DNA from: Diphasiastrum complanatum
Taxonomy: Eukaryota > Streptophyta > Lycopodiopsida > Lycopodiales > Lycopodiaceae
Reading direction: 5' to 3'
DNA: 64,000 nt
Assembly (NCBI GenBank): GCA_029204225.1
Contig: CM055096.1
Coordinates: forward strand, 38,523,219-38,587,218
Numbering within the stretch: the stretch's first letter is position 1; every line of letters starts with the position of its first letter. The position numbers and the translations under genes are program-made. Shown in pieces: positions 23,601 to 64,000 of the stretch. Under the pieces are notes generated by a model that made no database searches, was not told the origin of the DNA, and worked only from the letters and a program-made list of their open reading frames with translations.

Positions 23601-23815
23601 CAAGGATTCGCTGCAGTGGATGGATCCCAATCCTGTAATGCCTGACCGCTCACGTTTGTCTTGAAGTCTAGTAAAACTTCTGCATCCATCTGCAAGCTTG
23701 CCATGGCCAGAGTCGATTTAACTGCAGCAAATGCCAATAGAAACATTCCTGCCCACATAACAGCTCCAGCGAATTGCCCGGGAGAAGATAGCACAGCCAT
23801 GAATATATTGCACAC
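20635..23815 (-). CDS. LRR receptor-like kinase 1 (non-RD, XII/FLS2-like), 1024 aa
   Basis: Predicted plasma-membrane receptor kinase. Exons are 23815-21202 and 21095-20635; the phase-1 intron (21201-21096) has GT-AG ends and splicing restores MAPE in the kinase. The product has a hydrophobic N-terminus (about 15-38), an LRRNT with paired Cys (41-79), about 20 LRRs of 24 residues (88-590), an ELCG cap, a membrane helix (634-657) and a kinase from about 690. The kinase shows GTGGFSTV (701), VAIKK (722), HCDLKPSN (821) and DFG (841). Cys instead of Arg before the catalytic Asp makes it non-RD, a trait common among immune receptors. Ligand and partners cannot be read. The start is supported by the equivalent MC start in the paralogue. 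The C-terminus has an extra ~35 residues with a repeated MHQVA...WKGN motif, absent from the paralogue. Confidence 0.93.
21096..21201 (-). other. Intron of receptor kinase 1 (106 bp)
   Basis: The donor CCAG|GTATTATC and acceptor ATTGCAG|AGAATG fit plant consensus. Removal joins the G of the first exon to AG, giving the Glu of the APE motif and then NASLGRLTSKADVYSYG. The paralogue has its intron at the same place. Confidence 0.93.
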
Positions 23816-23920
23816 AAATCAAACTACACTATAATTTTCCATTACCTACGCACTAGATAATCCAATACCTCATGCCACTTCAGATCAATCGATATATCCA
23901 ATCTTCTCTGATGAAAGTGC

Positions 23921-30100: not shown

Positions 30101-33100
30101 CTACTTGATCATAAGATTCCTTGCAATGTTCATCCGCTGAAGGATCTCAACGATTTCTCTCATTGTGGGACGATCGTCGGGATATTTCTTGCAACAAGCC
30201 AATCCTAGTTGCATGACTCGAATAAAGTCCTCTTTGTCTGCAGCAGATGCATTGTTTAGCAGCTCTGCATCCACCTTTTTCAGTGCATCGTCATCAAAGG
30301 CAGTCTGAACCCATGTTGACATCGTCGATCCATGTAAAGTGAACAGATCGCTTGTAGGTTTTCGCCTTGTCATCATTTCCAGAAGAACGATGCCATAGCT
30401 GTAAACATCCCCTTTGGATGTGATTTTTCCTAGGGATGCATTTTCTGAAATCGCGAAAGCAGTCATCAACAACAGCTGCTAGCAGATCAAGACCTAGATG
30501 TGGGCGTCACAGTAAAGAAAGGGAAATACTCGCGATCATACCTGGAGCCATGTATCCGAATGTTCCTTGGAAGGCAGAGGTGGATATACCGCCACTCATG
30601 TCAGAATATCGGAGAATTCTTGCAACTCCAAAATCAGCAACATGAGGTTCCAGTTCTGCATCTAGGAGGATGTTGCTTGGCTTCAAATCGCAATGAAGAA
30701 TTGGTTCCGCGCACTCGTGGTGAAGGTAAAGCATCCCCTGCGCCACGCCTGTGATGATCTTATAGCACACAAACCAATTTGTGATTTCACCCTTCCCCTT
30801 GTAAAGCTGCTTCTCAAGGCTGCCGTAGGGCATGAGATCCACGATCAAGGCCTTGAGCTCCGTGCTTTCGCAGTAGCCCCAAATCCTCACCAGATTGCGG
30901 TGCTTTGCCATCCTCAGTATCTGCAGCTCTGCCAGGAAGCTGGGGTGGTTTGCAGCAACATTGTGGCTCTCAATTTTGAACTTCTTGATCGCAACCAGCA
31001 GCCCACCAGGTAACGTGCCTTTGTACACAACGCTGAAAGCTCCCGTACCAACTATGTTGCCATCGCTGAAACCATCTGTGGCAGTCCAGAGATCTTGCGC
31101 TGTGAGCTGCTTCAGCTTAGGTACTTTGACAAACACTTCCAGTGGTGTATCAGAAGGTGGAGAAATATTTCTAATAATTTTCCTTTTGAGGCGAGACAGC
31201 AGGCAAAAAAGAAGTAAACCTATGAAGAGGCCGACAACACAGGCGACAACGATGACGGTGCTCCGTCTGACGCCGTTTCGAGACGACTTTGCAGGCGGTG
31301 AGCTTGATGGGCTGAGGGGGCATTCAATCTGCAGAATTGTTCCACAAACCTCAGTGTTTCCCTGGAAAGAGCTAGCAGTGAGATTGCGAAACACTCCTGT
31401 TGAGGGAATTGGACCAACAAGGTGATTGTAGGAGAGATTGAGAAAAGTTAGCGATGGCAAAAGCGTGAGGACGGAAGGGATAGTGCCTGAAAAATCGTTA
31501 GCAGAGAGATCAAGCTGGTTCAGATTCTTCAAAGTCTGTAGTTGTGATGGAATATCTCCCACCAAAGCGTTTCCGGAGAAGTTCAACTGCTGCAACCCCA
31601 CGCAAGTCCCTATACCTCCTGGAATACTGCCAGAAAAATTGTTGTTGGACAAATCAATAGTAGTGACTAAAATCATCTGTCCAATTTCTGCAGGTATCAC
31701 CCCGGACAGCTGATTGTGTGTCAGATAGAAATTCTTTACCAAAGAGCCCAGCCCAGCCACACTACGAGGAATGCTCCCACTCAGCATATTGTAGCCCAGA
31801 GCTAGATCTTCTAGCATTTTGAAATTGACAAATACGTCCGGTATTTCTCCAGTCAATCGATTATGGTGCAGGTAAAGCATGCTTAAACTGCTGAGGCGGC
31901 CTACCTCCGGAGGTATAGGTCCGGTGAACTGATTATAGTGCAATTGCGCCTCAACTAGCAAGGAGCAGTTGCCAAGCTGGGTAGGAATTTTACCAGACAG
32001 CAAATTGTTGTTGAGTATCAATGCACTGAGCGCTTTCATCTCACCAAACTCTTGACCAATGCTACCACTGAGCAGATTTCCCTTGAGTTTGAATACCTCC
32101 AAATTGGTGTAGTTTGCTGCTAGCTCTGCAGGAATGCTCCCAGTGAGAGCATTATCAGCTATGCTAAATAACCTTTTCAACGTTGTGAGCCGCCCAAGAG
32201 AGGCATGAATGGTACCTGTCAAGCTGTTTGATCCGAGATCAAACAGCGTCAACTGAGAAAAGTTTCCTAGTTCAGGGGGCACGCTACCGGTGAAGTTGTT
32301 TCCATTTATCCATAGCTCCTTCAGCTGACTGAATTGTTCTAACTGGGGAGGAATTGAACCAGAAAGGTTGTTGAATTCAACGTGGAAGAACTGCATTTTG
32401 GTGCAATTCTGCATCACAGTGAGGGGAATATTGCCCGTGAGGTTGTTATAGAGGACGTTGAAGACTTCCAACTGCGAGAGAGAGCCAAGCTCTGGGGGAA
32501 TACTTCCTCTCAGATAGTTGCCATACAGTCCAAAAGCTACAAGCTTGCTCAGATTACCAAGGGAAGTGGGAATAGTACCCGTGAAGTTGTTGTAGCCAAT
32601 GTCTAGATCGAGCAATTCTGTGAGCACGCCCAATTCAGGAGGCACAGTTCCATTGAGCTTGTTGCGAGAGAGGTTGAGCTCCAACAGAGTCGAGCAATTG
32701 GATAGCTCCCTGGGGATGTTGCCTATCAGGAAGTTGGAAAAGAGGGCAAGAGTATTGAGATTCGAGAACCTACCTAGAGAAGGAGGGATAGAGCCAGTGA
32801 GATTATTCTTAGAAAGGTCAAGACTATGGAGCATAGGCAGATCTCCTAGCCTGGGAGAGATGGTACCCATTATTCCTCGTTGGGAAAGATTTAGCCCCAC
32901 CACATGCTGAAGCTTGAGATCACAATTTACTCCTGTCCAGCCACAGGGATTTGCAGCAGTGGAAGCATCCCAGTCCTGTAACGCCTGACCGCTCACATTT
33001 TTCTTGAAATCCAGCAGCACTTCTGCATCCACTTGGAGGCTTGAAATGGCCCGCGTCGATGATGTGGCTGTGGCAATTGCCACCATAAACATGCCTGCGC

Positions 33101-33167
33101 ACATAGCGGCTACAGCAAATCGCCCAGCAGAATATACCACAGTTGCCATTAATGCCGCTGTGCACAA
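30101..33167 (-). CDS. LRR receptor-like kinase 2 (non-RD, XII/FLS2-like), 989 aa
   Basis: This is a close paralogue of the kinase at 20635-23815, in the same orientation 6.3 kb away. Exons are 33167-30542 and 30444-30101, with a phase-1 intron of 97 bp (30541-30445) whose removal restores the APE Glu. It has an N-terminal hydrophobic segment, an LRRNT with paired Cys, about 20 LRRs, a membrane helix (about 635-658) and a kinase with GTGAFSVV (706), VAIKK, HCDLKPSN (825) and DFG (845). It is also non-RD. The second Gly of the loop (GTGGF in copy 1) is Ala here, which is tolerated in many kinases. The frame ends MNIARNLMIK; the homologous downstream DNA is coding in copy 1 but out of frame here. 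It is most probably a surface receptor; the ligand is unknown. Confidence 0.93.
30445..30541 (-). other. Intron of receptor kinase 2 (97 bp)
   Basis: Donor CTCCAG|GTATGATC and acceptor GATTTCAG|AAAATG. Splicing gives APENASLGKITSKGDVYSYG, matching the paralogue. Confidence 0.93.
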
Positions 33168-33264
33168 TCTTCTGCATTCCTATACACCTGATGATCTAAT
33201 ACCTCATACGACTTCAGATCAAAGCCCATTATTCATAGGTCAGCAATATACACTCAAGAAAAAG

Positions 33265-39724: not shown

Positions 39725-40525
39725 TTTCGACCTCCAGCTGGCCCAATGAAAATGCTCAAATTTGAAATCTACGTGACGTAGCTCAAATAAACTACAAAAT
39801 AAAAATATATTATAGCAAACTTTGAAAGTTGCATGCAGCATGGACGTATCCCATTGGTTCCCTCTTCATGTCCGACAATCTGCCCAATGTCAATACCTCA
39901 AATTAAATTTATTTAACTATGCTGGTTAGTATAATAAAATTTGTTAACTTGACTAGTTACAGTTATAGAAATATAGTATGCACAGTTGCTAGAAATACAG
40001 TATGCACATTAACTGTGACTACTGTGGCATTCTCATGAGATTAAATGTGATACGAAAAATTGAATTTAGTATCATATCAGAGAGAGTTTTTGTGCCTAAG
40101 CCTTGAAAATAGCAATGGCGAGGAGACCAAGATCTACAATTGAGTCTATGAATCTTTACAATGAGAAAGCTGACGCCAATAACTGGAAGCCAACAAAATA
40201 TATGAAGAATTCATGGGTGTTGTTGCATCCATCATCAAAGAGCAATTTTTGATAGAAGAAAAGGGCAAGGATGACATACAAATCTTATTGGAAAGCAAAG
40301 ATTTTGGAGCTTAAGACAACTCCCGGAGGTCACTCTATATCAAAAGTTTTAGTATAACATGTTTATATGCATTCAAAAATAAAAGTACAAGATATCAATC
40401 CTTATGAGCATCGGAAATGTAACTGTAAGTATATCAAAACGTATGCACTCTACTGTAATCATAGGTGTTTTTTGAATGATGCTCTTCAGATTACGATTTG
40501 AATATTTCAACGTTTTTCTTCTTTC
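39725..40525. other. Unassigned stretch between exon-like segments
   Basis: There is no long frame. A short start-like reading at 40116 (MARRPRSTIESMNLYNEKAD) runs into stops and cannot be judged. Confidence 0.3.
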
Positions 40526-40527
40526 AG

Positions 40528-40985
40528 GTTTATATCCATCAAACATAAGTGAATGGGAGCCAGTACAATCACTTGCAGGAATATTGGATGTGATTTATTC
40601 TGATGTTGGAAAGCTGCAATTTAGAGGAAGAAGTCCAAAGGAACTTGCAGATAGTGGTATATATTTTTATGAAGCTTCATATATACCACAAACGAATGGA
40701 GGTTTCGACAAGCTTGAAACAATTCCATTGCCAGGTTTTCAGAGTGATGAGTGGCCTATTCCTGACAGTATTGATTCTGAATCCTTCAAATGCAAGCTAT
40801 TCTTGGATATTAGAAATGCCATGAAGAAAAGTAGAGGTTCAAAAATTGTTCACCTAAGTTGGTTTCTCTCATTGCATATATTTGTTGATTTTTTCTCAAG
40901 TGCAAGTGTGCGAAGGACACCAACTTTATTTGTTTGCAAAAATTTATCAGATGAGACTTTGTCAGATCTCATGGATGAAGGCTAG
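40528..40985 (+). pseudogene. Exon-like ORF of an unrecognised gene (~150 codons)
   Basis: The frame follows an acceptor (TTCTTTCAG at 40519-40527) and stays open to TAG at 40983. It contains SEWEPVQSLAGILDVIYSDV, LQFRGRSPKELADSGIYFYE, IPLPGFQSDEWPIPDSI and FLDIRNAMKKSRGSKIVHLS, and the composition looks like real protein. No family is recognised. The last 45 codons may already be intronic. Confidence 0.45.
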
Positions 40986-44400: not shown

Positions 44401-44704
44401 CAGCTCGTATTGAATGATGTTGCTTTGCTTCTGCATTGGCATCCTTGATCTCACTTGGAAAAGCGTAAATCCTCGTTCGCTTACGTAAAACCAAGTGCTT
44501 ATTGCTGCCAGTCTTTATCAAAAAACTGCTTTTTGCAATCTGCTGCAATGTACCAGAATGCCTTATTGTTTGCAAACGGTTGACATTCTCAAAACTTGGA
44601 GAGCTCTCAACAGCCTTACAATCTTGCATGCCTGAGTGCTTTCTCAAGGAAGATTGCCATAAAAAACTTTGTATGCAAAATTTGAGAAGTATACCTAAAT
44701 ATTA

Positions 44705-45197
44705 ATGCGTCCGGATGATACTTTCAATAACTTTTTGGAAGTTATGAAAACTTACGCCTCTGGTAATATGTCCTACAAAGAACCGGACTACACTGCAAAG
44801 AAGCCGAAGTTCTTTCCAATGACAATAAGATTTTTTAGACCAGTGAGATATATTCCTTATGTAATCTGCGATCGTATTTGTACAAAATTGTTGCATGGTG
44901 ATTTATTTTTCGGTGAAAATAAAAAGAAAGAGAGATATATTGATAAAGGTGTAAATAATATGGTCCGAGAAACATGCTCCGTGCATGTCATAAATTTATT
45001 AGTTTCATTGGATAATGACCTACACAACAATGTAGAGTACAATAAAGAAAGCATCAAATTTCTGTCAAAAACCATTGACAAAAAGTTTGTGTATGATCGG
45101 ATCAGAGCAGCAATGAGTAGCGGCCGGAGCATATCAGCAAAATTGCAAGCTCGTATACCTGCATCATTGACTCAGTTTGTACATAGGGTGAAGGAAA
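44705..45197 (+). pseudogene. Unrecognised gene fragment interrupted by copia element 1
   Basis: An open frame of about 164 codons contains RPDDTFNNFLEVMKTYASGN, RFFRPVRYIPYVICDRICTK, MVRETCSVHVINLLVSLDND and SGRSISAKLQARIPASLTQF. Its last codons run into the first bases of the copia LTR, where the frame ends artificially. Beyond the element the same frame would stay open for a few codons before a stop. I do not recognise the family. Nearby plus-strand pieces (51.6-52.3 and 57.8-58.0 kb) could belong to the same transcription unit. Confidence 0.5.
45193..45197. repeat. Target-site duplication of copia element 1 (left)
   Basis: GGAAA directly precedes the 5' LTR and recurs at 51629-51633 directly after the 3' LTR. 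Confidence 0.93.
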
Positions 45198-45852
45198 TGT
45201 GAAAATTGTCAACATTTCCTAGCTAGTTTGAGGCCTAAATTGGCTAAAATTGTAAATAGTTTTGGTTCTGGAGTTTTGCACGTGTGAACCAGGCCACAAT
45301 GTTTTTATTTACTGTATTTTTTCAGTATGATGAAGTGTCAAACTTCATACCCTTCAAAATGAGACCATTTTGATGTATTTTGGTCATATAAGCCATTTTT
45401 AGCTATTTTTCCTATATAGGGAATATCTAGGGTCAAGTACCTTCTAGAGAGAGGAGAGAGAGTCATCTTCCTCATCCATAAATAGTAGGGAAGTCGTGGA
45501 GAACAGGTTGGAGAAACCTTTTGTATGCTTCATTGAGATCAATAGATCATTGTCATTGTTTCTTCCTCCATTGAGAGCATTGTTGTGTGTATTGTCTTCA
45601 AGCTATTGTGTATGATCTTAGGTGCTTTCCAAAAGTGATAGGCTGATGTATTATGGACTGTATAATGCTATTTTGGGCCGCACTTGATGTTTATGGAAGT
45701 TTCCATTTGTGATAAATGCTTTTTGATCAAGTTCTTTGCATTCTAGGTAGCATAGAATGTGTTGCCAATTCCTAGCTTATGTAGTTTGGAGTGCAAGCAT
45801 TCAAGCCAATGATCTTGGAGTATAGATCCACTTAGGATCTGTATTTTTCACA
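45198..45852 (+). repeat. 5' LTR of copia element 1 (655 bp)
   Basis: It runs from TGTGAAAATTGTC to GTATTTTTCACA. A TATA-like CTATATAGG lies at 45412-45420, which probably drives the genomic transcript. It differs from the 3' LTR by a single G/A at about position 212 of the LTR. Confidence 0.97.
45412..45420 (+). promoter_or_regulatory. TATA-like box in 5' LTR
   Basis: CTATATAGG, about 215 bases into the LTR, is followed by GA-rich sequence. It is the best core-promoter candidate in the LTR. Confidence 0.5.
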
Positions 45853-45865: not shown

Positions 45866-47024
45866 GGTTGGCTTCTATTTACAGTAAGTATTCCATTTTT
45901 GGTGATATTTGGATGTTTGATCAAGTTCTAGCATGATTTTGCATTGCTTTGTTGATCAAATCTTACTAACCTTTGTTTTGTGAGTTGAACTTGTGGATCA
46001 AAAGCATATTTCAGGTCTATTGAAGATCAGAGGCTGAAAAGAAACTATTTTGGATCAGATCATAACACCTAATCATTTGTGATTGTGAGGCTTGTGCATA
46101 TTCAATACTAACAATGTTCTTTTCAATCCTATTGTTGACAATCTCCATTCTTGGATGAACACTCTCCTTAAGTGGATGAAACTTCTCCTTAAGTGGATGA
46201 CAAATGCTCTTTTGAGTGAGTTGTAATTCTCCTAAAGGCTGAGCAAAGCTCCCATTTGGATGAAAGATCCCCTTTTTTGGGTGAACATATTGTAAGCTCC
46301 ATTGTGAAGAGCATATTGTAAAGATTGTCATCAATTTTGGCATAAATTTTGGTGTACTTTGTTGAGCATGTAAGTAACTCTCCTTATGTAATTTGATTGG
46401 AGCATTTGCTGGAAGGTGTTAACCATTATGCAAGTGTGTTTTCAGGTTCTTAACAGGTTGAGGAACATTCTCATGTGAAGTGATCTTAGATCTACATCTA
46501 AACACCAAGATTTGACAAGATAGTGAAGCTAGTCTTGTGATTCACTAAGTGTGCTCATTCATTCACCTCTAAATCTTGTATTTATCACTTGCTGGAGTTT
46601 ATAAACTTTTAGAAGTGTGGTTTACATGTGGTTTTACAGGTTGAATCAATATCTTAGTGTGTTGATCATATGTTGATCAAGTTTGTTCATTACTAGGTAA
46701 TCTTGGCATCCTAGTTTTGGGTATTTTCTAAGAATGCAAGTAACTCTTCACACCATAACTTGATTTGGTCACTTGCTGGAAAGTTTGAGAGCTTAAGCAA
46801 GAGTGTGTTCAGGTTGGTTTGATTTTGTAATCCATTCTTAGTGTGTGCAAAGTGTTGCATGTGTTTCAATCTTCCTTTCTATGCTTGGAAACCATCTAGG
46901 TTCAAGATAGAAGTGTTTTAGGGTCCTAAATCTTCATAGATCTCTTTATCTATCATTTGTTGAGAGAAAAGTGAGTGCTAAGTGCTTTAGGACAGAACCT
47001 AAAAGTTGAAGAAACATTAGAATC
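45866..47024 (+). other. Untranslated leader of copia element 1
   Basis: No gene is present. Three related blocks recur in it: GTAACTCTCCTTATG...CTTGCTGGAAGG near 46376, CTTGCTGGAGTTTATAAAC near 46590, and GTAACTCTTCACACC...CTTGCTGGAAAG near 46739. A shorter tandem CTCCTTAAGTGGATGA lies at 46166-46200. Confidence 0.7.
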
Positions 47025-49361
47025 ATGGCTTCCAATGGTGGGATCATGCTAGAGTCTAGTGAAAGGTTGAGTTCATCAAACTACTCTACTTGGAAAGTGA
47101 GGATGGAGTCCTTACTTGAGTTGAATGAACTCATGGACATAGTTGCAGAAATTGAAGAGAGACCTCTCACACTTCAAGAGCAACAAAGGTTTGATAAGAA
47201 GGCCAAAAGGGCTCTTCATATCATTAAAATGAATGTTACAAATGAACTTCTCAAGGAAGTTGGAAAGTGTCAAAGTGCAAGTGAGGCATGGAATGCCTTA
47301 AAGAAGCTCTTTGAATCAAAGTCCACATCTAGGGTATTGACCCTAAGGAGACAAATATTTTCTAGTAGGCAAAGAGAGGGTGAAAGTGCTCATGCATTTA
47401 TCTTGAGAGTTAAGTCCCTAAGTGATGATTTAGCATGCATTGATGAGAACATAAAAGATGGTGAAATAGTCCAAGTTATGTTGAATGGTTTGCTAAATGA
47501 ACATGCTAACCTTGTGCAAAGTTTTTCCATTCAAAGAGTCTTGCCAAGTGTGGTTGACTTGCAAGAAATCTTATTGGCTGAAGAACATAGGTTGCAATCA
47601 AAGCTTGATGGTGCATCCTTGCAAGGTGGAGGTGAAGAGGCTTTCTTCACAAAAGGCAAATTCAAGGGCAAAGGTAAAGGCAAAGGGAAATGGTCCAAAG
47701 GTGGTAACTTTGATCATGATGATCACTCTTCCTCTTCCTCTTCTACTAAGAACAATAAGTCAAAGTTCAAGTGCTTTTATTGTGGGATAAAAGGTCATTT
47801 TGCAAATGAATGTTATAAGAAGAAAAGAGAGCAAGGAGAGAGGCAAGGAAATCTTACAATAGATGAGGAAGAACATAACACATGTGAATCACTTGTTATG
47901 ACCTCAAGTTTGCTAGCCAACATAGATGATAATGATCCTTGGTGGATTGATAGTGGAGCCTCATCTCACATGACAAGACATAAGGAATACTTTACATCCT
48001 TATTGTCTTATGAGGGAGAAGGTAACATCATCTACACTGCAAATGATGGTCAATGTGACATCAAAGGCATAGGCACTATTCCTATTTCCCTTTCAACAAA
48101 TAGGAAAGCAAATCTTGAAAATGTCTTGTACATTCCTTCAATCACTAAGAATTTGCTTAGTGTAAGTCAAATGATTGACAAAGGACTTGATGTGGAGTTC
48201 ATTGGAGATGCATGTTTGATAAGTAAATGTGGATCCTTGATTGCTCAATGTAGGAGGCATGGTAAACTTTTCAAGCTTGATGCATGTGTGATCTCTAATC
48301 ATGAAGGATGTATGGCTAGGGAGCAATTGACAAACCAAGAAGTTTGGCACAAGAGGTTGGGCCATCCCAACTTCAAATCTTTGGAGGTAATGGCAAAGAA
48401 AGAGCTTGTTCTTGGTCTCCCTAAAAGTCTTGTTGCAAACAATAGTGTTTGTGAACATTGTGCCTTGTCCAAATCTCATAGACTTGCTTATTCTAGATCT
48501 ACTTCTAGATCTAAAGAAGCTTTTCAACTTGTGCATTCTGATATTCATTCTTCTAGTACAACTAGCAATGGTGGGGCAAAGATGTATGCAACTTTCATTG
48601 ATGACTTTAGTAGGTATACTTGGATCTATCTTCTTAAAAGTAAGGATGAAGTGTTTGCTGCATTTGTCAAGTTCAAGAATGAAATGGAAAACCAATTCAA
48701 TACAAAGATCAAATGCTTAAGATCTGATAATGGAGGGGAATACACCTCAAATAGGTTCAAAGACTTTTGTATAGCACATGGGATTAAGAGGGAGATGTCT
48801 AGTCCTAGGACTCCACAACAGAATGGAGTGGCCGAGAGGAAGAATAGAACCCTTTGTGAATGTGCCAAGGCAATGAGACTACATGCTAATCTTGCTAAGT
48901 CTTTTTGGGGGGAAGCTTTAGCATGTGCTAACTATCTATGTAATAGATGGACAAGTGCTTCCTTGGATGGTAAAACTTCTCATGAGGTTCTTTATGGTAG
49001 AAGGCCGAGTGTCAAGCATTGTAGGATCTTTGGATGTACATGTTTTGTCAATATCACACTTGATGATAGAACTAAAGAAGATCCTTCATCAAAGAAGGGT
49101 GTGTTTGTTGGCTATAGTGAAGTAAGCAAGGCTTACAAAGTGTACATTCCTTCTACAAAGAAAGTTGTCATAAGTAGGGATGTCATCTTTCATGAAGAGA
49201 ATGTTTCCAATGTTGTTGATGTTGATGTTGATGTGCCTACTAATCATCATGATGTGCAAGATGTCTTGGATGAAGATGGAGATGCCACTCCAAAGCAAAC
49301 TTCAAGGAAGACTCAAAGGCAAAGGGCTAAGCCATCAAGGCTAACCTATGATGAAAAATGA
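47025..49361 (+). CDS. Copia element 1 gag-protease-integrase (778 codons to TGA)
   Basis: The frame starts at MASNGGIMLESSERLSSSNY. It contains UBN2-type gag, a Gly/Lys-rich stretch, a CCHC knuckle CFYCGIKGHFANEC (about 249-262), and protease DSGASSHMT (about 308). The GAG-pre-integrase zinc site HKRLGH...CEHC begins near 441. The integrase core carries HSDIHS (503), RSDNGGEY (566) and GVAERKNRT (602). The linker ends RLTYDEK just before TGA. Related elements stay open here (RLTYDGQGD in element 2), so the TGA is a nonsense change or, less likely, a read-through site. The polyprotein continues in frame at 49362. Confidence 0.95.
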   Translation: MASNGGIMLESSERLSSSNYSTWKVRMESLLELNELMDIVAEIEERPLTLQEQQRFDKKAKRALHIIKMNVTNELLKEVGKCQSASEAWNALKKLFESKSTSRVLTLRRQIFSSRQREGESAHAFILRVKSLSDDLACIDENIKDGEIVQVMLNGLLNEHANLVQSFSIQRVLPSVVDLQEILLAEEHRLQSKLDGASLQGGGEEAFFTKGKFKGKGKGKGKWSKGGNFDHDDHSSSSSSTKNNKSKFKCFYCGIKGHFANECYKKKREQGERQGNLTIDEEEHNTCESLVMTSSLLANIDDNDPWWIDSGASSHMTRHKEYFTSLLSYEGEGNIIYTANDGQCDIKGIGTIPISLSTNRKANLENVLYIPSITKNLLSVSQMIDKGLDVEFIGDACLISKCGSLIAQCRRHGKLFKLDACVISNHEGCMAREQLTNQEVWHKRLGHPNFKSLEVMAKKELVLGLPKSLVANNSVCEHCALSKSHRLAYSRSTSRSKEAFQLVHSDIHSSSTTSNGGAKMYATFIDDFSRYTWIYLLKSKDEVFAAFVKFKNEMENQFNTKIKCLRSDNGGEYTSNRFKDFCIAHGIKREMSSPRTPQQNGVAERKNRTLCECAKAMRLHANLAKSFWGEALACANYLCNRWTSASLDGKTSHEVLYGRRPSVKHCRIFGCTCFVNITLDDRTKEDPSSKKGVFVGYSEVSKAYKVYIPSTKKVVISRDVIFHEENVSNVVDVDVDVPTNHHDVQDVLDEDGDATPKQTSRKTQRQRAKPSRLTYDEK

Positions 49362-50978
49362 AAGCAAGTGGTGGACAACTCTAACTTTGCTTTTCTTACC
49401 TCTTTTGATGAACCAACTTGTGTAGGTGAAGCAATTCAAAAGAAGGAATGGATCCAAGCCATGGATCATGAGCATCAAGCACTCATCAAAAGCAACACAT
49501 GGAGGTTGGTAAAGCTTCCAAAGGACAAGAAGGCAATTGGTTGTAAGTGGATCTTCAAGATCAAGACAAATCAAAATGGATCAATCAACAAGTACAAGGC
49601 AAGGTTGGTGGCAAAGGGGTATGCTCAAGAATATGGTATTGACTATGATGAGACCTTTGCACCCGTGGCAAAGATGGTAACTATTCGAATCCTAATCTCT
49701 CTTGCAACTCTTTATGATTGGGATATGTGGCAAATGGATGTTACTAATGCCTTCTTGAATGGTGATCTTGAAGAAGATATTTACATGGAGCAACCCGAGG
49801 GCTATGTTTCACATGATGAGCCTAATCATGTGTGCTATCTCCAAAAGAGTTTGTATGGGCTAAAGCAAGCACCAAGGAGTTGGTATGCTAAGCTCAATTC
49901 CTTCTTACTTTCTCAAAACTTTGTTATGAGTGAGTATGATCATTCTCTCTACTTTAGATTGAATGAAAATGATATCACTTTACTTTTGATCTATGTTGAT
50001 GACATTATCTTAAGTGGTGGTAACAATCTAGATATAGATGAAATCAAGATGGCACTCAAAAGAGAGTTTGAAATTCAAGATCTTGGTAAACTTCATTATA
50101 TCTTAGGAATAGAGATTATTAGAACTTCTAAATCTACATTCATATGTCAAGAAAAGTATGTTAACTCTATTCTAAAAAGGTTTCATATGGAAGATTGTAA
50201 AGTTGTTTCTACTCCTATGGAATCAAATGTAAAGCTAACTACAAGAAGTAATGAAAGATCCTTCAAGGACATTACTCTCTATAGAAAGCTAATAGGATAT
50301 CTTATATGGTTAACCATCACAAGACCTGATCTAAGCTTTGTGGTTGGTAAACTAAGTCAATTTATGCAAGATCCTAGTGAGGCTCATTGGAAGCTAGGAA
50401 AGAGAGTACTTAGATACATCTCGGGATCTAGAGATTTTGGCATCTTGTATGGAGGTACTACACCTAACCTTTGTGGATTTTCAGATTCAGATTTTGCAGG
50501 TGATCAAATGGATAGGAAGTCAACAAGTGCCTTTGCAATCTATCTTGGAGATGGAGTGGTCTCATGGCTATCAAAGAAGCAACCAACTATCTCTCTATCT
50601 TCCACCGAAGCCGAGTACAAGGCATTAACAACATGCACCAAGGAGATTCTTTGGATCAAGAGGATGTTATTGGATCTTCACTTGCTGGAACCAGAGAAGA
50701 CTCCAATCATACTTTGTGATAACCTTTCAGCCCAAAGCTTGGCAAGCAATCCTGTTTTTCATGCAAGGAGCAAGCACATTGAGATTGCTCACCATTTTGT
50801 GAGAGATCAAGTCATTGCCAAAGAGGTGGAGCTTCAACATGTCTCTTCAAAGGAGTGTGTGGCTGATATCTTCACCAAACCATTGGGAAAGGACCTATAT
50901 TTAATGCATAGATCTAATCTTGGAATGTGCTCAAAGACTATGTTGAAACTAGCATCCAATGTTGAAGAGGGAGTGTGA
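49362..50978 (+). CDS. Copia element 1 reverse transcriptase-RNase H (in frame after TGA)
   Basis: This continues the previous frame directly after TGA; no ATG start is near. RT shows NTWRLVKLPKDKKAIGCKW, ARLVAKGYAQEYGIDYDETF, DVTNAFLNGDLEEDIYMEQP and the YVDDIILSG palm box (49993). RNase H shows SDSDFAGD, SSTEAEYKAL (50599) and CDNLSAQSLASNPVFH, ending with SKHIEIAHHFVRDQV and VADIFTKPLGKDL. All catalytic acidic residues are present. It ends five bases inside the 3' LTR region, next to the polypurine tract. Confidence 0.95.
   Translation, partial: KQVVDNSNFAFLTSFDEPTCVGEAIQKKEWIQAMDHEHQALIKSNTWRLVKLPKDKKAIGCKWIFKIKTNQNGSINKYKARLVAKGYAQEYGIDYDETFAPVAKMVTIRILISLATLYDWDMWQMDVTNAFLNGDLEEDIYMEQPEGYVSHDEPNHVCYLQKSLYGLKQAPRSWYAKLNSFLLSQNFVMSEYDHSLYFRLNENDITLLLIYVDDIILSGGNNLDIDEIKMALKREFEIQDLGKLHYILGIEIIRTSKSTFICQEKYVNSILKRFHMEDCKVVSTPMESNVKLTTRSNERSFKDITLYRKLIGYLIWLTITRPDLSFVVGKLSQFMQDPSEAHWKLGKRVLRYISGSRDFGILYGGTTPNLCGFSDSDFAGDQMDRKSTSAFAIYLGDGVVSWLSKKQPTISLSSTEAEYKALTTCTKEILWIKRMLLDLHLLEPEKTPIILCDNLSAQSLASNPVFHARSKHIEIAHHFVRDQVIAKEVELQHVSSKECVADIFTKPLGKDLYLMHRSNLGMCSKTMLKLASNVEEGV
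50964..50973 (+). other. Polypurine tract of copia element 1
   Basis: GAAGAGGGAG immediately precedes the 3' LTR and overlaps the last codons of pol. Confidence 0.9.
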
Positions 50979-52988: not shown

Positions 52989-53603
52989 AAGTACAAGGCC
53001 ATTGATCTGTGTTTGAATCTAATCCAGTTTTAGCAGGTTTTGGTGCAAAAAGCTAGTATTGGAAGGGCGAGCTAGTATCCAGGTTCTGGTGAGGGGATTT
53101 GATCCCAAACTTTTTCAGGATCAAAATCCGTACTGTTCACACGTGTGGGCATCTCTGAACCAGCATTTAATAACCCATATTCATTGGATCATAGAAAATT
53201 CATATGGTGTCAGTTTGATGTAATTTTTGGCGCAAATCCTAGGATAAGCTACCAAGATCACTTGCCATTGATTAGTTTTGAATTTGTTTCATGACTAATT
53301 AATCTAGGCTGATTTCAAACCTTCTTAAAGTGGAAACCAGGTCTTGAAAGTACATCAAAGTGAATGAGAGAGATAGAGTCAGTTTTTGTCCAAGAATAGC
53401 CAAGATTGGCAAGATTTGCTTGAGTGTAGTTTTCATCTCATCTTATCTTCATTCCAGCTTGTGAGGGAGTGATAGAACTGTGATTACAAATCCATCTGGT
53501 GGATTAGAAGTCAACATTTGAGTGAAACACTGCAAGTTAGAAACCTTTGTGAGTTTCAGGTCCAAACAAATCTATATCTTGTGTGTAGAATCTTGCTAGT
53601 AAG
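52989..53603 (+). other. Untranslated leader of copia element 2
   Basis: About 615 bases between the primer site and the gag start, without a gene or a clear repeat. Confidence 0.7.
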
Positions 53604-54632
53604 ATGGGATCAGTGGGAGCCTACCTTCTAGAAGCTAGTGAGAGGTTAAATTCTACCAATTATGCTATTTGGAAAGTGAGGATGGAGTCACTAATGGTGC
53701 TCCAGGATCTTTATGAGTTTCTAATAGATGATGAAGATGAACCTCTAGGTGCACAGGAATTAGTGAGATACAAGAAGAGGTCTAGGCTTGCACTTCACTG
53801 TATTAAGATGAATGTAAGCAATGATATTTTAAGGGAAGTATCATCATGTAAGAGTGCTAAAGAGGCTTGGGAATCTTTAAAATCTATCTATGAGTCTAGT
53901 AACACTTCGAGGGTTCTCATGCTTAGGAATCAGATTCTACAAAGCATAAAGAGGAGTGATGAGAATGCACAAGATTATGTGCTAAGAATCAAGTCTCTTA
54001 ATAGGGAGTTAGCTTCCATTGGAGAGAAGATTCAAGATAGTGAGCTTGTTCAGATTGTCCTAAATGGTGTAGGGAGTGGCTTTACAAATTTGGTCCAAAG
54101 CTTTGCAATCCAAGACACTTTGCCTACTATAGAAAAGCTACACAGTGTATTAGTAGCTGAAGAGTGTAGGATGTTGCATACCAATGCAAGAATGAATGCT
54201 ATTTCTCTGCAGGATGGTGATGAGAAAGCTAATTTCTCATTCAAAAGCAAGAAGAAGACCAATGGCAAGAAGAAGCACTTCAAGGAGACCAAGGAGGAGG
54301 ATGAGGCTTCAAGCTCAAAGGGCAAGATCAAAGACAAGTCCAAGTACAAATGTTTTTTTGGTGGAAAGAAAGGACATTTTGCATCAGAATGTCTCAAGAA
54401 GAAGAAGGCACAAGAGAGCAAACAAAGCAACATTGCACATCAGGAGGAAGAGGAGTATGAAGAGTCATCCTTGATGGTTTCCAACAAACCACCATCATCC
54501 AAGAGCAACACCAATGATTCTTGGTGGATTGATAGTGGGGCAAGTTCCCACATGACATATTCTCCACCTTACTTTCTTACAATGACTTACATAAATCAAT
54601 CTATACTGCAAGTAGTCAAGAATGTAAGATAA
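53604..54632 (+). pseudogene. Copia element 2 gag and protease start, frameshifted
   Basis: It begins MGSVGAYLLEASERLNSTNY. The UBN2-type gag includes AWESLKSIYESSNTSRVLML and ELVQIVLNGVGSGFTNLVQS. The zinc knuckle reads CFFGGKKGHFASEC: the second Cys codon (54360-54362) is GGT, so the CCHC site is broken. Protease DSGASSHMT is present near 54532. A frameshift at about 54590-54602 ends this frame, and the protease continues in another frame. Confidence 0.93.
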
Positions 54633-57589
54633 GTGGAATAGGAACAATTCCCTTGTATGTGGGATCATCCAAAAGGATGAATCTAGATAATGTTATTTAT
54701 GTTCCTAAGTTAACCAAGAATTTGCTTAGTGTTGGCCAGTTAATGGATAATGGCCTAGATGTACAATTTAAGCATGGAGTTTGTTCCATCCTTAGAAATG
54801 ATGAATGTATAGCCAAAGGCTTTAAGCAAGGTAGATTGTTTAAGCTTGATGCTAATATTGCAGTGGAGAGTGTTAACTTGGCAAAGGTGGAGCTATCAAA
54901 GGTGGAACTGTGGCACAAAAGGTTGGGCCACCCCAACTACAAAGCCATGGAATCTATGACTACAAAGGAGCTTGCAGTTGGACTCCCCAAGCATTTGTCA
55001 AAGTGTGGGAAGAGATGTGAAGCATGCAGCCTCTCAAAGGCTCACAAGCTACCCTTCTCAAGATCTACATCAAGATCAAACTCTCCTCTTGAACTCATCC
55101 ATTCGGATGTTCATAGTTTTTCACATGAGTCTAATGGTGGTGCCAAGTACTATGTAATCTTCATTGATGACTATTCTAGATTTTGTTGGATGTACCTCTT
55201 GTCTAGCAAATCAATGGTGTTTGATTCTTTTGTAAAGTTCAAGACTTTGGTAGAAAATCAACTTAGTACCAAGATTAAGGTATTAAGGAGTGATAATGGA
55301 GGTGAATATGTCTCCAATAAGTTGATTGACTTTTGTATTTCTAATGGCATAAAGAGGGAGTTGTCATGTCCATACACCCCTCAACAAAATGGAGTGAGTG
55401 AGAGAAGAAATAGATCTCTTTGTGAGTGTGCTAAGGCCTTAAGGCTAGATGCTTCTCTATCCAAACCATTTTGGGGTGAAGCAATAACTTGTGCTAACTA
55501 TTTGTGCAATAGATTGCCAAACCAAGCCATTGGAGGAATCACACCATTTGAAGCTCTATTTGGAGAGAAGCCCAATCTCAAAGATCTCAAAGTTTTTGGA
55601 TCCACTTGCTATGTACACCAATCCTTGGATAAGAGAAGGAAGGATGATGCAACATCCATCAAAGGCATCTTTGTGGGATATGGTGAGAATAGCAAAGGTT
55701 ATAGAGTCTTCAATCCCATCACTAGCAAGGTGATAGTGAGTAGGGATGTTATTTTTTATGAAGGACATGCCTGTGATTTGGATGATAATGCTACTAATCA
55801 TCTTGATGCCAAGGATCATGCTAGGATGGAGGAGGAGCTTCCAAGTGAAGAAGAACTTGAGGATCCACCTCAAGATGCAAGAACTCCAAGAACTCCAAGA
55901 ACTCCAAGAAGATCTACAAGGGCAAGATCCGAGCCATTGAGGCTCACCTATGATGGTCAAGGTGATCAAAGGGAAGGCTCATCATCTTTCACATCTTACA
56001 CCTTTCTTACTTCAATGTTAGATGAGCCAACATGCTATGAAGATGCTTGTAAGTCTAAAAGTTGGATGGATGCTATGCAAGTAGAGTATGATTCTCTTAT
56101 TGAGAATCATACTTGGGATCTTGTGGATCTTCCTCAAGGGAAGAAACCTCTTGAGTGCAAGTGGGTGTTTAGATTGAAGTATAATCAAGATGGATCAATA
56201 AGCAAGCATAAAGCTAGGCTTGTTGCCAAAAGTTTTTTACAAACCAAAGGCATTGACTATGATGAGACTTTTGCTCCTGTGGCTAAGCTTGTTACTATCA
56301 GGTTGATCATTAGTCTTGCTACAACCTTCAATTGGGAGCTATTCCAACTTGACTTCACAAATGCATTCCTCAATGGTTATTTGGAGGAAGAGATCTACAT
56401 GAGGCAACCCGAGGGCTTCATCAAGGCAAAGCATGAAGGAAAGGTGTGTTTTTTGAAGAAGAGCCTTTATGGGCTCAAGCAAGCACCTAGAGCATGGTAC
56501 TCTAGGCTAAACTCTTTTCTCATTTCCATCAATTTTGTAATGAGTGCCTATGATCCATCATTGTATATAAGTTTTCATGATGGCATGATCATTATTCTTG
56601 TTTTGTATGTAGATGACATTATCTTGAGTGGTAATGATCTAGATGGAATTAGAGATGTAAAAATTGCTTTAGAAAAAGAGTTTAAGATGGTAGATCTCGG
56701 CCTATTGAGCTTCATTCTTGGAATAGAGGTTATTAGAGGATGTGATTTAAGCTTCATTTGTCAATCTAAATATGCTACATCCATCCTAGATAGATTTGGA
56801 ATGAAGAATTGTAAAGGCATTGAGACACCAATGGAGCAAAATGTAAAAGCATCTATTGGTTGTGATGAAGCATCCTTTGAGGACATCACATTATATAGAA
56901 GGCTTATTGGCTCCTTGATCTATTTAACTATAACTAGACCTGATCTTAGTTATAGTGTTGGAAAGTTAAGCCAATTCATGCAAAGTCCTCTAGTTTCACA
57001 TTGGAAGATGGCCAAAAGAGTTCTTAGATACATTTCACTCAATAAGAATTTTGGTATTTTGTATAGAGGAACTAATCTTGGCTTAAGAGCCTATAGTGAC
57101 TCGGATTTTGCAGGTGACAAAGTGGATAGAAGATCAACAAGTGCCTTTGCTACCTTTCTATGTGATGGAGTAGTATCATGGCTTTCCAAAAAGCAAGATA
57201 CCATCTCCCTATCTTCCACAGAATCCGGATACAAGGCCTTGACATCAACATGCAAGGAGGTCTTGTGGCTCAAAAGGCTATTGGTGGAGCTTCATGTCAT
57301 GGAGGAGGAGATCCCTATCATCTATTGTGACAACCAATCAGCCCAATCACTTGCAACTAATCCTACATTCCATGCAAGGAGCAAACACATCGAAATTGCT
57401 CATCATTTCGTGAGGGAAAAAGTGCAAGCTAAAGAGATCAAGCTCCAACACGTGTCATCATCAAGTTGCTTGGCTGATTTATTTACTAAACCTTTACCTA
57501 AAGATTCATTTGTCAAGATTAGATCTTCAATTGGAGTTATTGATAAAAGCATTGTGATCTCCAAGAAACCCAGCTTTAGCACTTTGTAA
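54603..57589 (+). pseudogene. Copia element 2 pol: protease end, integrase, RT, RNase H
   Basis: After the frameshift the frame is open for about 990 codons. The protease end has LDNVIYVPKLTKNLLSVGQL. Integrase shows WHKRLGHPN, CEACSLSKAH, HSDVHS (55099), RSDNGGEY (55290) and QNGVSERRNRS. RT shows DETFAPVAK and YVDDIILSG (56606). In RNase H, SSTEAEY has become SSTESGY (57220-57234), which removes the Glu that aligns with the catalytic one; SDSDFAGD and CDNQSAQSL remain. The last seven or so codons come from LTR sequence because of the 3' deletion. Confidence 0.94.
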
Positions 57590-61169: not shown

Positions 61170-61745
61170 CTCCAATATCTTTGTTTTTGCATTTTGAATC
61201 AATTCTAACCATTGTTGATCAAGCTAAATAAAGAAGTTTATATCTTATTTTGAAGAAATAACTTTGAGTTAGGCTCTTCAATGTTGTGACATTTTTAGTA
61301 ATTCTTAAGCATCAATTCTTCATGCTTTCTCTGAACTACAATGCAAATTTGTTTACAATCATTCAATGTACTAAAAAACTTATCTTTGCTAATTATGATG
61401 CTGACCCCAATACTGACAGTCCTTTATGTTTCTTGACTAGAATCAATCTGATCTATTTTGGTAGCTCAGTTTCGAGAAATCTTTTTGGGATGCTGAAGCT
61501 TGTCTCCAAGTAAGATTCAGCAACTTTGCATGGAAATTAGACAATGCTCACTGCAAAGGGACTTCTGACAACATGTCGATGGCCATCTTGCCAGATTAGT
61601 TGCCCAAAAATATATCTCCAGAAAGAAGTGAGTTTGGAATAAACGTGATTTCAAATGTTTCTTTATGTTCCTTTTCGGAGAATTTAAGTATGGATGGAGA
61701 AACTTGACAAAATTTTACAGCAAATTCAATCCCAGTCAATCCTAA
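61170..61745. other. Unassigned stretch
   Basis: No gene or repeat is recognised. Confidence 0.4.
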
Positions 61746-61748
61746 AAG

Positions 61749-62403
61749 TGATGGAGGATGCACAAATAAAAGATCTAGATCCAAACTATGAGCTAGAATC
61801 AAGACTAGTTACCAAAACTAGCAATTTTGGCATTTAACTCCACATTAGACACATAGATTTGATCAAGTGAACCGAAGTAAAGTACAACAAGCTTCTCATA
61901 CCTATAAACAAGGTCAGTACCTTCCAATCCAAGCAATTAATGCATAAAAACCCTCACATCCAATAGCTAGAACTCACCACCAAAAGACAATGATGATAAA
62001 AGTGGAAAAACTCGATTTTTCTTGATTTTTGGATGAAATCCCATCATACATTTATACTTTTCAAGCTCAGATCTGAGCATATTAGGGCACCTCTGAACTT
62101 ATCATACCCTAACCCTAACATCTAACCTAATAGGTCATTGGATCCACCCTAACTTGGGGTCAAGGTCTCGAGATCCCAAACCAATGAAAAACATGCTATT
62201 TTTAGCTCCTATTTTCTCTCTAGCTTATCAAAGCACTATTTGGACTCACTCCAAAGGTGTTACTCCTATGCTAGGTTAGGAATGAGACTTACAAAGAGTA
62301 TCCTATGCTATTTGGCACGTGTGACAAGCCACAACATGACCATAATACAATTTACAAGCCATATGACCAAAATTGGTCAAGCTAGAATTGTGAAATTTTA
62401 ACA
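61749..62403 (-). repeat. 3' LTR of minus-strand copia-type element M
   Basis: On the minus strand it begins TGTTAAAATTTCAC right after GTGAGGAG, the polypurine tract pattern also seen in element 1. The start resembles the TGTGAAAATTGTC type. The far end is only estimated from the LTR length of element 1. Confidence 0.5.
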
Positions 62404-62411
62404 CTCCTCAC
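62404..62411 (-). other. Polypurine tract of element M
   Basis: GTGAGGAG on the minus strand lies between the ORF stop (62429) and the LTR start. Confidence 0.6.
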
Positions 62412-62428
62412 AATTTAGCTTGATGAGA

Positions 62429-63172
62429 CTATCCTGGATCAATAATCAATACATGGATAAAAACAATATAACTTCCAGGTTCTTGCTTTGTTGAGTGACT
62501 ATGATCACTCATCATGATAAGAATATGATTTGAGCTCCAAGTTCTCAAATGTAGTGAGTGCTCCATAAAGGTTGTCTTCAAGATCCAAGCTTTGTCTTTG
62601 GTAGGTTGTTGAATGATCACCTTGGGCTGCAAAATGTGAGTCTCCTCCTCAAAATAAACATGAAAAACAGCAGCTTTCCATAAGATCCAACTTTTGTATG
62701 AAGCACATACAATCAAAGCTTGATATATCACCATCTTAACTTTATCCACCAAAACAATGAACTCCAACTTGGCATCCTTCCAATGAAGGTCTTCATTCCT
62801 TGGAAATTCAAGAGTGAATGGATCACAAGATGAGGCCTTTGAATACATATTTGAAACTCTAATCAAAGTAGTAATGATCACTATTTCATCATCATAAGAT
62901 ATAGGATGAAAAACAATGTTCATACTAGCATCATCAAAGGACTTTGCCAAATACATGACATGTTTTCTATCAAACACAAAATAGGATGAATAAAGGGAGA
63001 TATGGATAAAATTCCTTGCTGCTCCTTGCTCTTTACCCAAACCTTCATATTGATGTAGATTCAGGTCTCCTTTGCCTTGAGACAAGTGCTCCTTCTTGGG
63101 TTCCTCCTTGATGTCTTTTTTCTTCATCATGCTCACTCCCTCTTGGTGTTGATGATGAAAACATGGATCCAA
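62429..63172 (-). CDS. Novel ORF of element M, C-terminal part (~247 codons)
   Basis: This open frame occupies the place where copia elements carry RT and RNase H, ending 17 bases before the polypurine tract. It shows none of their motifs. An acidic and Lys-rich start (MMKKKDIKEEPKKEHLSQGK) is followed by FVFDRKHVMYLAKSFDDASM and NIVFHPISYDDEIVIITTLI, then FTLEFPRNEDLHWKDAKLEF and THILQPKVIIQQPTKDKAWI. It is in the same frame as the integrase-containing ORF at 63224-64000, with one TAG (63224-63226) and 17 sense codons between, so both probably formed one protein. The first codon given here is TTG and is not a real start. No family is recognised. Confidence 0.6.
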   Translation of the reverse strand: MDPCFHHQHQEGVSMMKKKDIKEEPKKEHLSQGKGDLNLHQYEGLGKEQGAARNFIHISLYSSYFVFDRKHVMYLAKSFDDASMNIVFHPISYDDEIVIITTLIRVSNMYSKASSCDPFTLEFPRNEDLHWKDAKLEFIVLVDKVKMVIYQALIVCASYKSWILWKAAVFHVYFEEETHILQPKVIIQQPTKDKAWILKTTFMEHSLHLRTWSSNHILIMMSDHSHSTKQEPGSYIVFIHVLIIDPG

Positions 63173-63223
63173 ACCATGATCTTCTTCAAGACTCTCAAGG
63201 ACTTTGTTTTCAAGTCTCCAAAC

Positions 63224-64000
63224 CTAAATGTTCTGCTTCTCAATATGATCTTTCAAGTCAACAAAACAATCACCAAGATTATTTATACCAAATTTACTAG
63301 TCCACAATTGACTAATCAACAATTGCTTACGACTAGCAATTTGCATTACATACTTGTTGAACTTGAAACTAATGAGGCCAAATACTCTTGTATGGATATA
63401 AGTGTCCTTCAAGGATGATTCACTTATTCTCATACAAGCTTCACAATATGCCTCTTTGAAAATGAAGTCAAATTCTTTCAACTTATGAATGAAAATGTCA
63501 TGCTTACTTCTAGCATACTCAAGAGTAAGTACATATGACAAACACCTTTCATTCCATACTTTAGAATTCAAAGGGACTTCATTACAAAACTCAGCAAATG
63601 AAGTACAAAATGTACCCCCCTTTCCAACTTTCCTTTCCTTGTCCACAAAAATGAGCATTGATAGCTCCATCTTTGCTCTTGTGGCTCTCCTTGGAATAGT
63701 TGAAGCTCTCAGATTTTGCTCCTCCTCTTGATCAAGCTCCTCCTTGATCTCAACCATATCTTTGCCAATATGATTTTTAGAGGATTCATCATTCAATATT
63801 ACAAACATTGTGGCTCTACCATTGCTCTTTGTGCTAGCAAAATGTACATCCAAATGAATCAACTTAAGAGGGTGAGTCATGTTAGTGATAGTGTTAGAGA
63901 AATGCAACCTATGTGCTTTAGCCAAAGCACATGCTTCACAAACCTTTTCCTCTTTTTCCATGGATATTGGAAGGCCTAGAGCAAGTTCCTCCTTGCACAT
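63224..64000 (-). CDS. Element M: GAG-pre-integrase, truncated integrase and novel region (5' end off window)
   Basis: The frame enters from the window edge with KEELALGLPISMEKEEKVCE and ACALAKAHRLHFSNTIT, the GAG-pre-integrase zinc region, then LKLIHLDVHFASTKSNGRAT, the start of the integrase core (SDVH is LDVH here). The core then breaks off after FVILNDESSKN, and the second and third catalytic residues are absent. The post-integrase linker follows (EELDQEEEQNLRASTIPRRA). After it comes a region not seen in copia pol (EVPLNSKVWNERCLSYVLTL, EFDFIFKEAYCEACMRISES) that continues in frame beyond the TAG at 63224. This fits a non-autonomous element with internal replacement. Confidence 0.75.
   Translation of the reverse strand: MCKEELALGLPISMEKEEKVCEACALAKAHRLHFSNTITNMTHPLKLIHLDVHFASTKSNGRATMFVILNDESSKNHIGKDMVEIKEELDQEEEQNLRASTIPRRATRAKMELSMLIFVDKERKVGKGGTFCTSFAEFCNEVPLNSKVWNERCLSYVLTLEYARSKHDIFIHKLKEFDFIFKEAYCEACMRISESSLKDTYIHTRVFGLISFKFNKYVMQIASRKQLLISQLWTSKFGINNLGDCFVDLKDHIEKQNI

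Follow-up and report, generated by a model that had tools for sequence, protein, structure and literature searches.

A minus-strand feature at the end of a 64,000-bp stretch of the Diphasiastrum complanatum genome (GenBank assembly GCA_029204225.1, contig CM055096.1, positions 38,523,219 to 38,587,218; hereafter the window) appears to be the 3' half of a single decaying member of a non-autonomous, or semi-autonomous, Copia retrotransposon family. It is probably best explained as a semi-autonomous Copia element that was mobilised in trans, became a mosaic by recombination and carries a fast-evolving tail derived from reverse transcriptase (RT). A preliminary description had proposed a non-autonomous Copia-type element with an unidentified protein in place of RT and RNase H. 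The element type is borne out by the long terminal repeats (LTRs), the primer-binding site (PBS) and the gag-protease region, and by the lack of the integrase core and of a working RT. The mysterious protein at the end of the frame is, judging from its likeness to a sequence profile, at least partly a worn-down polymerase of the Copia kind. The parts of the window copy are given below, where L009 is this copy with its surroundings beyond the window and L031 is a related element with RT.

61700-61704, minus strand: target-site duplicate AGTTT, which borders both element ends
61705..62403, minus strand: 3' LTR, 699 bp, TG...CA, by comparison with the 5' LTR copy beyond the window (L009)
62404..62426, minus strand: 3' end with the polypurine-like tract TTGTGAGGAG, by likeness to L031
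62429..62431, minus strand: stop codon TAG ending the long frame, by frame reading
62447..62740, minus strand: RT-like remnant, by our own Copia-RT profile (profile positions 103-202)
62741..63570, minus strand: remainder of the tail frame, about 270 residues including the in-frame TAG, without assignment in Pfam and PDB sequence searches
63224..63226, minus strand: in-frame TAG, by copy alignment
63571..63796, minus strand: integrase-RT linker, homologous to L031 by comparison
63794..63804, minus strand: integrase deletion junction with the frame kept, about 600 bp of catalytic core missing relative to L031
63797..64000, minus strand: end of gag-pre-integrase and first integrase residues, running past the window to the PBS and 5' LTR (L009)

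The minus-strand frame runs from a truncated integrase through the linker into the tail with one TAG inside, and its layout, including the stop at 62429 and the polypurine tract and LTR start beside it, is as the preliminary description gave it. The part from 64000 to 63224 has 258 codons and is open at the window edge; after the TAG, 264 further codons lead to the final stop, 25 bp short of the 3' LTR. Over the 379 codons after the linker the true frame has 1 stop, against 24 and 43 in the other minus-strand frames and 13, 25 and 32 on the opposite strand. Because the best of three frames always had at least 7 stops in composition-matched Markov resampling (two orders, 3000 resamples each), the long tail frame is not due to chance. 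Of 20 aligned copies, 4 have the inner TAG (L009 and its segmental duplicate L010, together with L012 and L028), the codon being CAG in 15 and CAA in 1. Since its carriers do not form a single clade in the tree, the TAG appears to be a private or recurrent change. Pfam finds the gag_pre-integrase family at E 3.3e-13 in the 590-codon open frame of the sister copy L019, and only below threshold (E 0.22) in the window's own cut-off frame.

The 3' LTR begins TGTTAAAA at 62403, immediately following TTGTGAGGAG, and TCATCAAGCTAAATTGTGAGGAG at the 3' end of the element resembles the same place in L031, which has TCATCTAGCTAGATTGTGAGGAG right before its LTR. In sequence of the same genome beyond the window, where the preliminary description had placed gag and the 5' LTR, the 5' LTR was located with an internal loss of about 415 bp, preceded by AGTTT and followed by the primer site TGGTATCAGAGC, which we take to be an initiator-Met PBS. 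Two TG...CA LTRs, a 5-bp target duplication, a primer site and a polypurine tract, as in a Copia-type LTR element, are thus all present. The copy measures 3.1 kb from LTR to LTR and lacks internal positions ~149-1780, which are the gag and protease region of other copies. The gag-protease-integrase part is represented in L015, which aligns with the window Copia polyprotein in three pieces between residues 6 and 460. Target duplications were also found in L012 (CTACA), L015 (CATGG) and L020 (AATTA), and in imperfect form in L013 (AACTA / AACGA). The window element is itself duplicated in inverted orientation about 190 kb away, together with at least 1.5 kb of 5' flank, at 99.9% identity (C5:38584001-38594000, L009, and C5:38769500-38779499, L010).

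Searches of the 1.74 Gb genome that contains the window show that the long frame is real and common to a family. At the DNA level 48 matches were obtained, with 82-100% identity overall and 91-100% for matches longer than 1 kb; 40 of 2664 candidates were scored. For 20 copies, 10 kb of context was read as well. Five copies (L012, L013, L015, L018 and L022) have LTR sequence at both ends, up to about 700 bp and in some cases shortened, around an interior of about 3.7 kb in which gag-protease-pre-integrase is followed by the window-type tail region. In L019 nothing interrupts the 590 codons between pre-integrase and the final stop; in the other copies the interruptions fall at differing places. 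The LTR pairs of nine copies differ by Kimura two-parameter distances (K80) of 0.013-0.053. Flanks identify L009/L010, L015/L022 and L020/L021 as segmental duplicates, and L010, L021 and L022 are therefore left out of all 17-copy counts. For the same reason, the 1-bp deletions common to L015/L022 and to L020/L021 were rejected as signs of amplification with a broken frame.

Several copies have individual histories. L015 (C6:63437000-63446999) and L022 (C6:63653900-63663899) lie in a duplication about 217 kb apart with flanks 98-99% alike; their LTR pairs differ unequally (K80 0.034 and 0.013), and gene conversion in one of them might be the reason. L028, L026 and L025 have LTRs only about 84-85% like those of L015, yet their tail region is about 93-95% like the window copy, so that LTR and interior may have separate histories. 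Two candidates for a different architecture were set aside as private changes, a choice that is unproven: L041, whose upstream part matches a region beyond the element of L031, and L038, in which about 455 bp are missing and the frame is broken.

The LTR-PBS junction of the family occurs at 2204 genome sites with at most 3 mismatches (control 0), a number that includes other Copia groups, and 6 kb were examined at eight of these sites. One of them, L031, is about 92% identical to the family over internal positions 1-2392 (gag-protease-pre-integrase). Next come about 600 bp of integrase core absent from the family, a linker about 74% alike, RT-RNase H (Pfam RVT_2, E 1.2e-39) and a 3' LTR about 77% like that of the family over 294 bp. 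L029, L032 and L033 belong to Copia groups about 67% alike to the family over about 450 bp; L030, L035 and L036 have no DNA match to it, and the match of L034 covers 47 bp only. The foreign-looking stretch of the family is bounded by the RT start and the last ~25 bp, the sequence just before the LTR being alike in the family and in L031. A 38-mer across the in-frame deletion junction of the family is found at 295 genome sites and one across the undeleted integrase sequence of the relative at 195, each with a control of 0. By these counts the deletion lineage has multiplied at least as far as the relative. On the refuting case named in the preliminary description the answer is mixed: a relative with ordinary RT-RNase H does exist, but the altered form has multiplied as a lineage of its own and is no one-off later insertion.

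The last ~100 residues of the tail (62447-62740) look like a very eroded Copia RT. Our own Copia-RT profile scores them at 7.9-18.7 bits in 17 of 25 copies, and controls at no more than 7.2 bits. The claim that the frame holds no RT or RNase H motif stands for motif and Pfam searches, in which the tail has no match to any RT or RNase H family, the RT model RVT_2 included; as regards RT, it does not stand for this more sensitive profile. Of the catalytic motifs, the aspartate of motif A is present in some copies only, and YVDD is not reached because the frame stops short of it. Between the RT-like part of L019 and the RT of L031, DNA identity is about 51%, with a nonsynonymous divergence (dN) of 0.72 and a synonymous divergence (dS) of 1.21, over 94 in-frame codon pairs with gaps excluded and one codon counted twice. 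This value, set against about 92% for gag-protease-pre-integrase, speaks against the very recent capture first proposed. For the rest of the tail, Pfam, NCBIfam and PDB sequence searches gave nothing convincing (best PDB match E 0.44; TraI_2_C E 0.076). A likeness to the RT thumb near the start of 62741-63570 has the same register in hmmsearch and hhalign, but with P 0.083 and a decoy of equal score it is not claimed. A second linker copy within the tail was rejected, its score lying inside the shuffle range.

The two parts of the coding region differ in their signs of selection. In nine copies dN/dS of gag-protease is 0.59 (bootstrap 0.42-0.81), the shifted frames giving 0.88 and 0.76. The tail gives 1.00 (0.71-1.62) in nine copies matched to the gag-protease set and 1.07 (0.78-1.43) in 17 copies; its true frame is not below the shifted frames (0.71-0.91), also when diverged copies are added. 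The comparison of synonymous and nonsynonymous changes thus shows past constraint on gag-protease and none on the tail. The family is not autonomous, with its integrase core deleted and no Pfam RT or RNase H in the tail; constraint on gag-protease together with the family-wide loss of RT and integrase (INT) is the pattern of a semi-autonomous element. Support is lacking for 8 of the 17 inner branches of the star-like tree, so that most differences between copies are probably decay after insertion.

Because gag-protease was constrained, the source elements would once have made Gag and protease; they retained the LTRs at both ends, the polypurine tract, the tRNA primer site and a frame for gag-protease-pre-integrase, the integrase core having been lost by one in-frame deletion. 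A tail of about 380 codons stands in place of RT-RNase H, its final ~100 codons apparently being a long-diverged RT (fingers-palm) without YVDD; this frame was presumably open in the ancestor and translated. RT, RNase H and integrase must have come from elsewhere, most likely from L031-type relatives, which would have packaged and copied the element RNA in trans. The sequences themselves show common element ends and a related element with RT. Between the nine family copies and L031, gag-protease differs by dN 0.05 and dS 0.10, and gag-protease and the RT part cannot well be of one age. Since divergence of the 5' part is far below that of the RT part, the simplest account would be that the 5' part recombined with L031-like elements. 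5' identity is much above linker and tail identity, which suggests that template switching with L031-type relatives may have refreshed the 5' part and that the tail evolved alone.

It is possible, though doubtful, that the tail is a pure relic without function, open only through the recent descent of all copies from one open ancestor. Its dN/dS of about 1, no lower than in shifted frames, fits such a relic, as do the many private stops and frameshifts. However, an RT part that is still collinear and open at about 51% DNA identity would hardly be expected of unselected DNA, which is the best reason to think that the frame mattered. Two further signs, both weak, point in this direction too. In the second half of the tail (25 rows), the share of synonymous changes rises from 28/201 among those in one copy to 8/43 in two and 11/38 in three or more (three or more against one, p 0.03, uncorrected for three frames). 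Among shifted frames in the same classes, one rises less (45/201, 11/43, 11/38) and the other falls (52/201, 7/43, 5/38). This sign is weak because, in a superseded count minus only L010, the excess of shared synonymous changes was as strong in one minus-strand frame (odds ratio 2.10, p 0.013) as in the true frame (1.97, p 0.047). The other sign comes from indels in the 17 copies. Both indels that independent copies have in common preserve the frame (2 of 2), whereas 5 of 29 private indels do so (p 0.045); a 3-bp gap where the alignment begins (L023, L025 and L028) is not counted. A 1-bp deletion common to L014 and L040 in the 25-row alignment runs counter to this.

These two signs would also suit a selected tail protein that forms the C-terminal end of a translated Gag-protease fusion and helps the element, for example by binding RNA or the RT of a partner. 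Such a protein is unlikely, since dN/dS of the tail is near 1 and no known motif was found in it, whereas gag-protease of the same copies does show constraint. A further reading, to which we give little credence, is that selection kept the frame open but hardly acted on its amino acids, so that a dead RT was kept as a fast-evolving open spacer. The genomic RNA would then have to stay translated to near the 3' LTR, for example to avoid nonsense-mediated decay or to remain packageable, the RNA-decay step being conjecture. This reading fits a dN/dS near 1, shared indels in frame and an RT part that is eroded yet open. Least probable is a transduced host gene, a piece of host mRNA that template switching would have put where RT-RNase H belongs, with maize Bs1 as the model. 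LTR elements such as Bs1 are described as capturing genes (PMC7264820, PMC13317346), and the ~270 tail residues at 62741-63570 have no recognised relative, but the C-terminal ~100 residues are RT-like. No host homologue was seen in a protein search of the genome that is a weak test (145 of 7608 and 150 of 8408 candidates scored): the matches listed are family-like (66-100% and 82-100% identity), and because family copies fill the lists, a distant host gene could not surface. The idea of a transduplicated host gene in the preliminary description is thus not supported.

A semi-autonomous element with an RT-derived tail suggests that an orphan open reading frame (ORF) which looks foreign within a retrotransposon can turn out to be a defunct polymerase, and how far RT can erode with an open frame inside a still-multiplying Copia lineage. 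If selection on the frame alone were true, retrotransposon survival would be tied to host RNA quality control and orphan ORFs of other non-autonomous elements would be explained. If false, the family would be one more Copia family mobilised in trans.

Elsewhere in the window there are two better preserved Copia elements on the plus strand (47010-50978 and 53589-57589) whose gag-pol frames are nearly complete: in one a single stop separates two long frames, and in the other the frames overlap. Two similar long tandem leucine-rich repeat (LRR) receptor-kinase genes lie on the minus strand (20635-23818 and 30507-33179; Pfam LRR and Pkinase). Because both ORFs end inside the kinase domain near FGYMAPG, an intron probably follows in each. 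On the plus strand, ORFs of 169 and 167 codons (40476-40982 and 44699-45199) are protein-like and match no Pfam family at E 0.01.

A literature search judged by titles and abstract openings gave no Copia family with an RT-derived orphan tail, which leaves its absence unproven. Additional ORFs (aORFs) of plant LTR elements are likewise family-wide extra coding sequences near the 3' LTR, but they mostly lie between pol and the 3' LTR, whereas the present frame takes the place of RT-RNase H and is joined to the frame upstream of it (PMC7264820). Maize Bs1 is also an LTR element whose hybrid frame includes segments that come from elsewhere (PMC7264820, PMC13317346). However, its segments match known host genes, whereas none was found here and the segment is partly RT-like. 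BARE2 and non-autonomous RLC_Angela are, like the present family, Copia elements that lack functions of their own and are thought to use proteins of partners; gag is disrupted and the other genes are intact in BARE2, and the coding region is highly degenerate in non-autonomous RLC_Angela copies (PMC9744471). The closest published kind found appears to be wheat RLG_Sabrina, a high-copy Gypsy family with a semi-autonomous long form that has GAG-protease and lacks RT and INT. Segments in its derivatives encode short proteins, four of which have no homology to other proteins of wheat, and an autonomous partner is inferred to act in trans (PMC9744471). Both are high-copy non-autonomous LTR elements that kept GAG-protease and lost RT and INT. 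However, RLG_Sabrina is a Gypsy element whose derivatives replace gag-pro, whereas the present family is Copia, keeps gag-pro and has an odd, partly RT-like frame in place of RT-RNase H.
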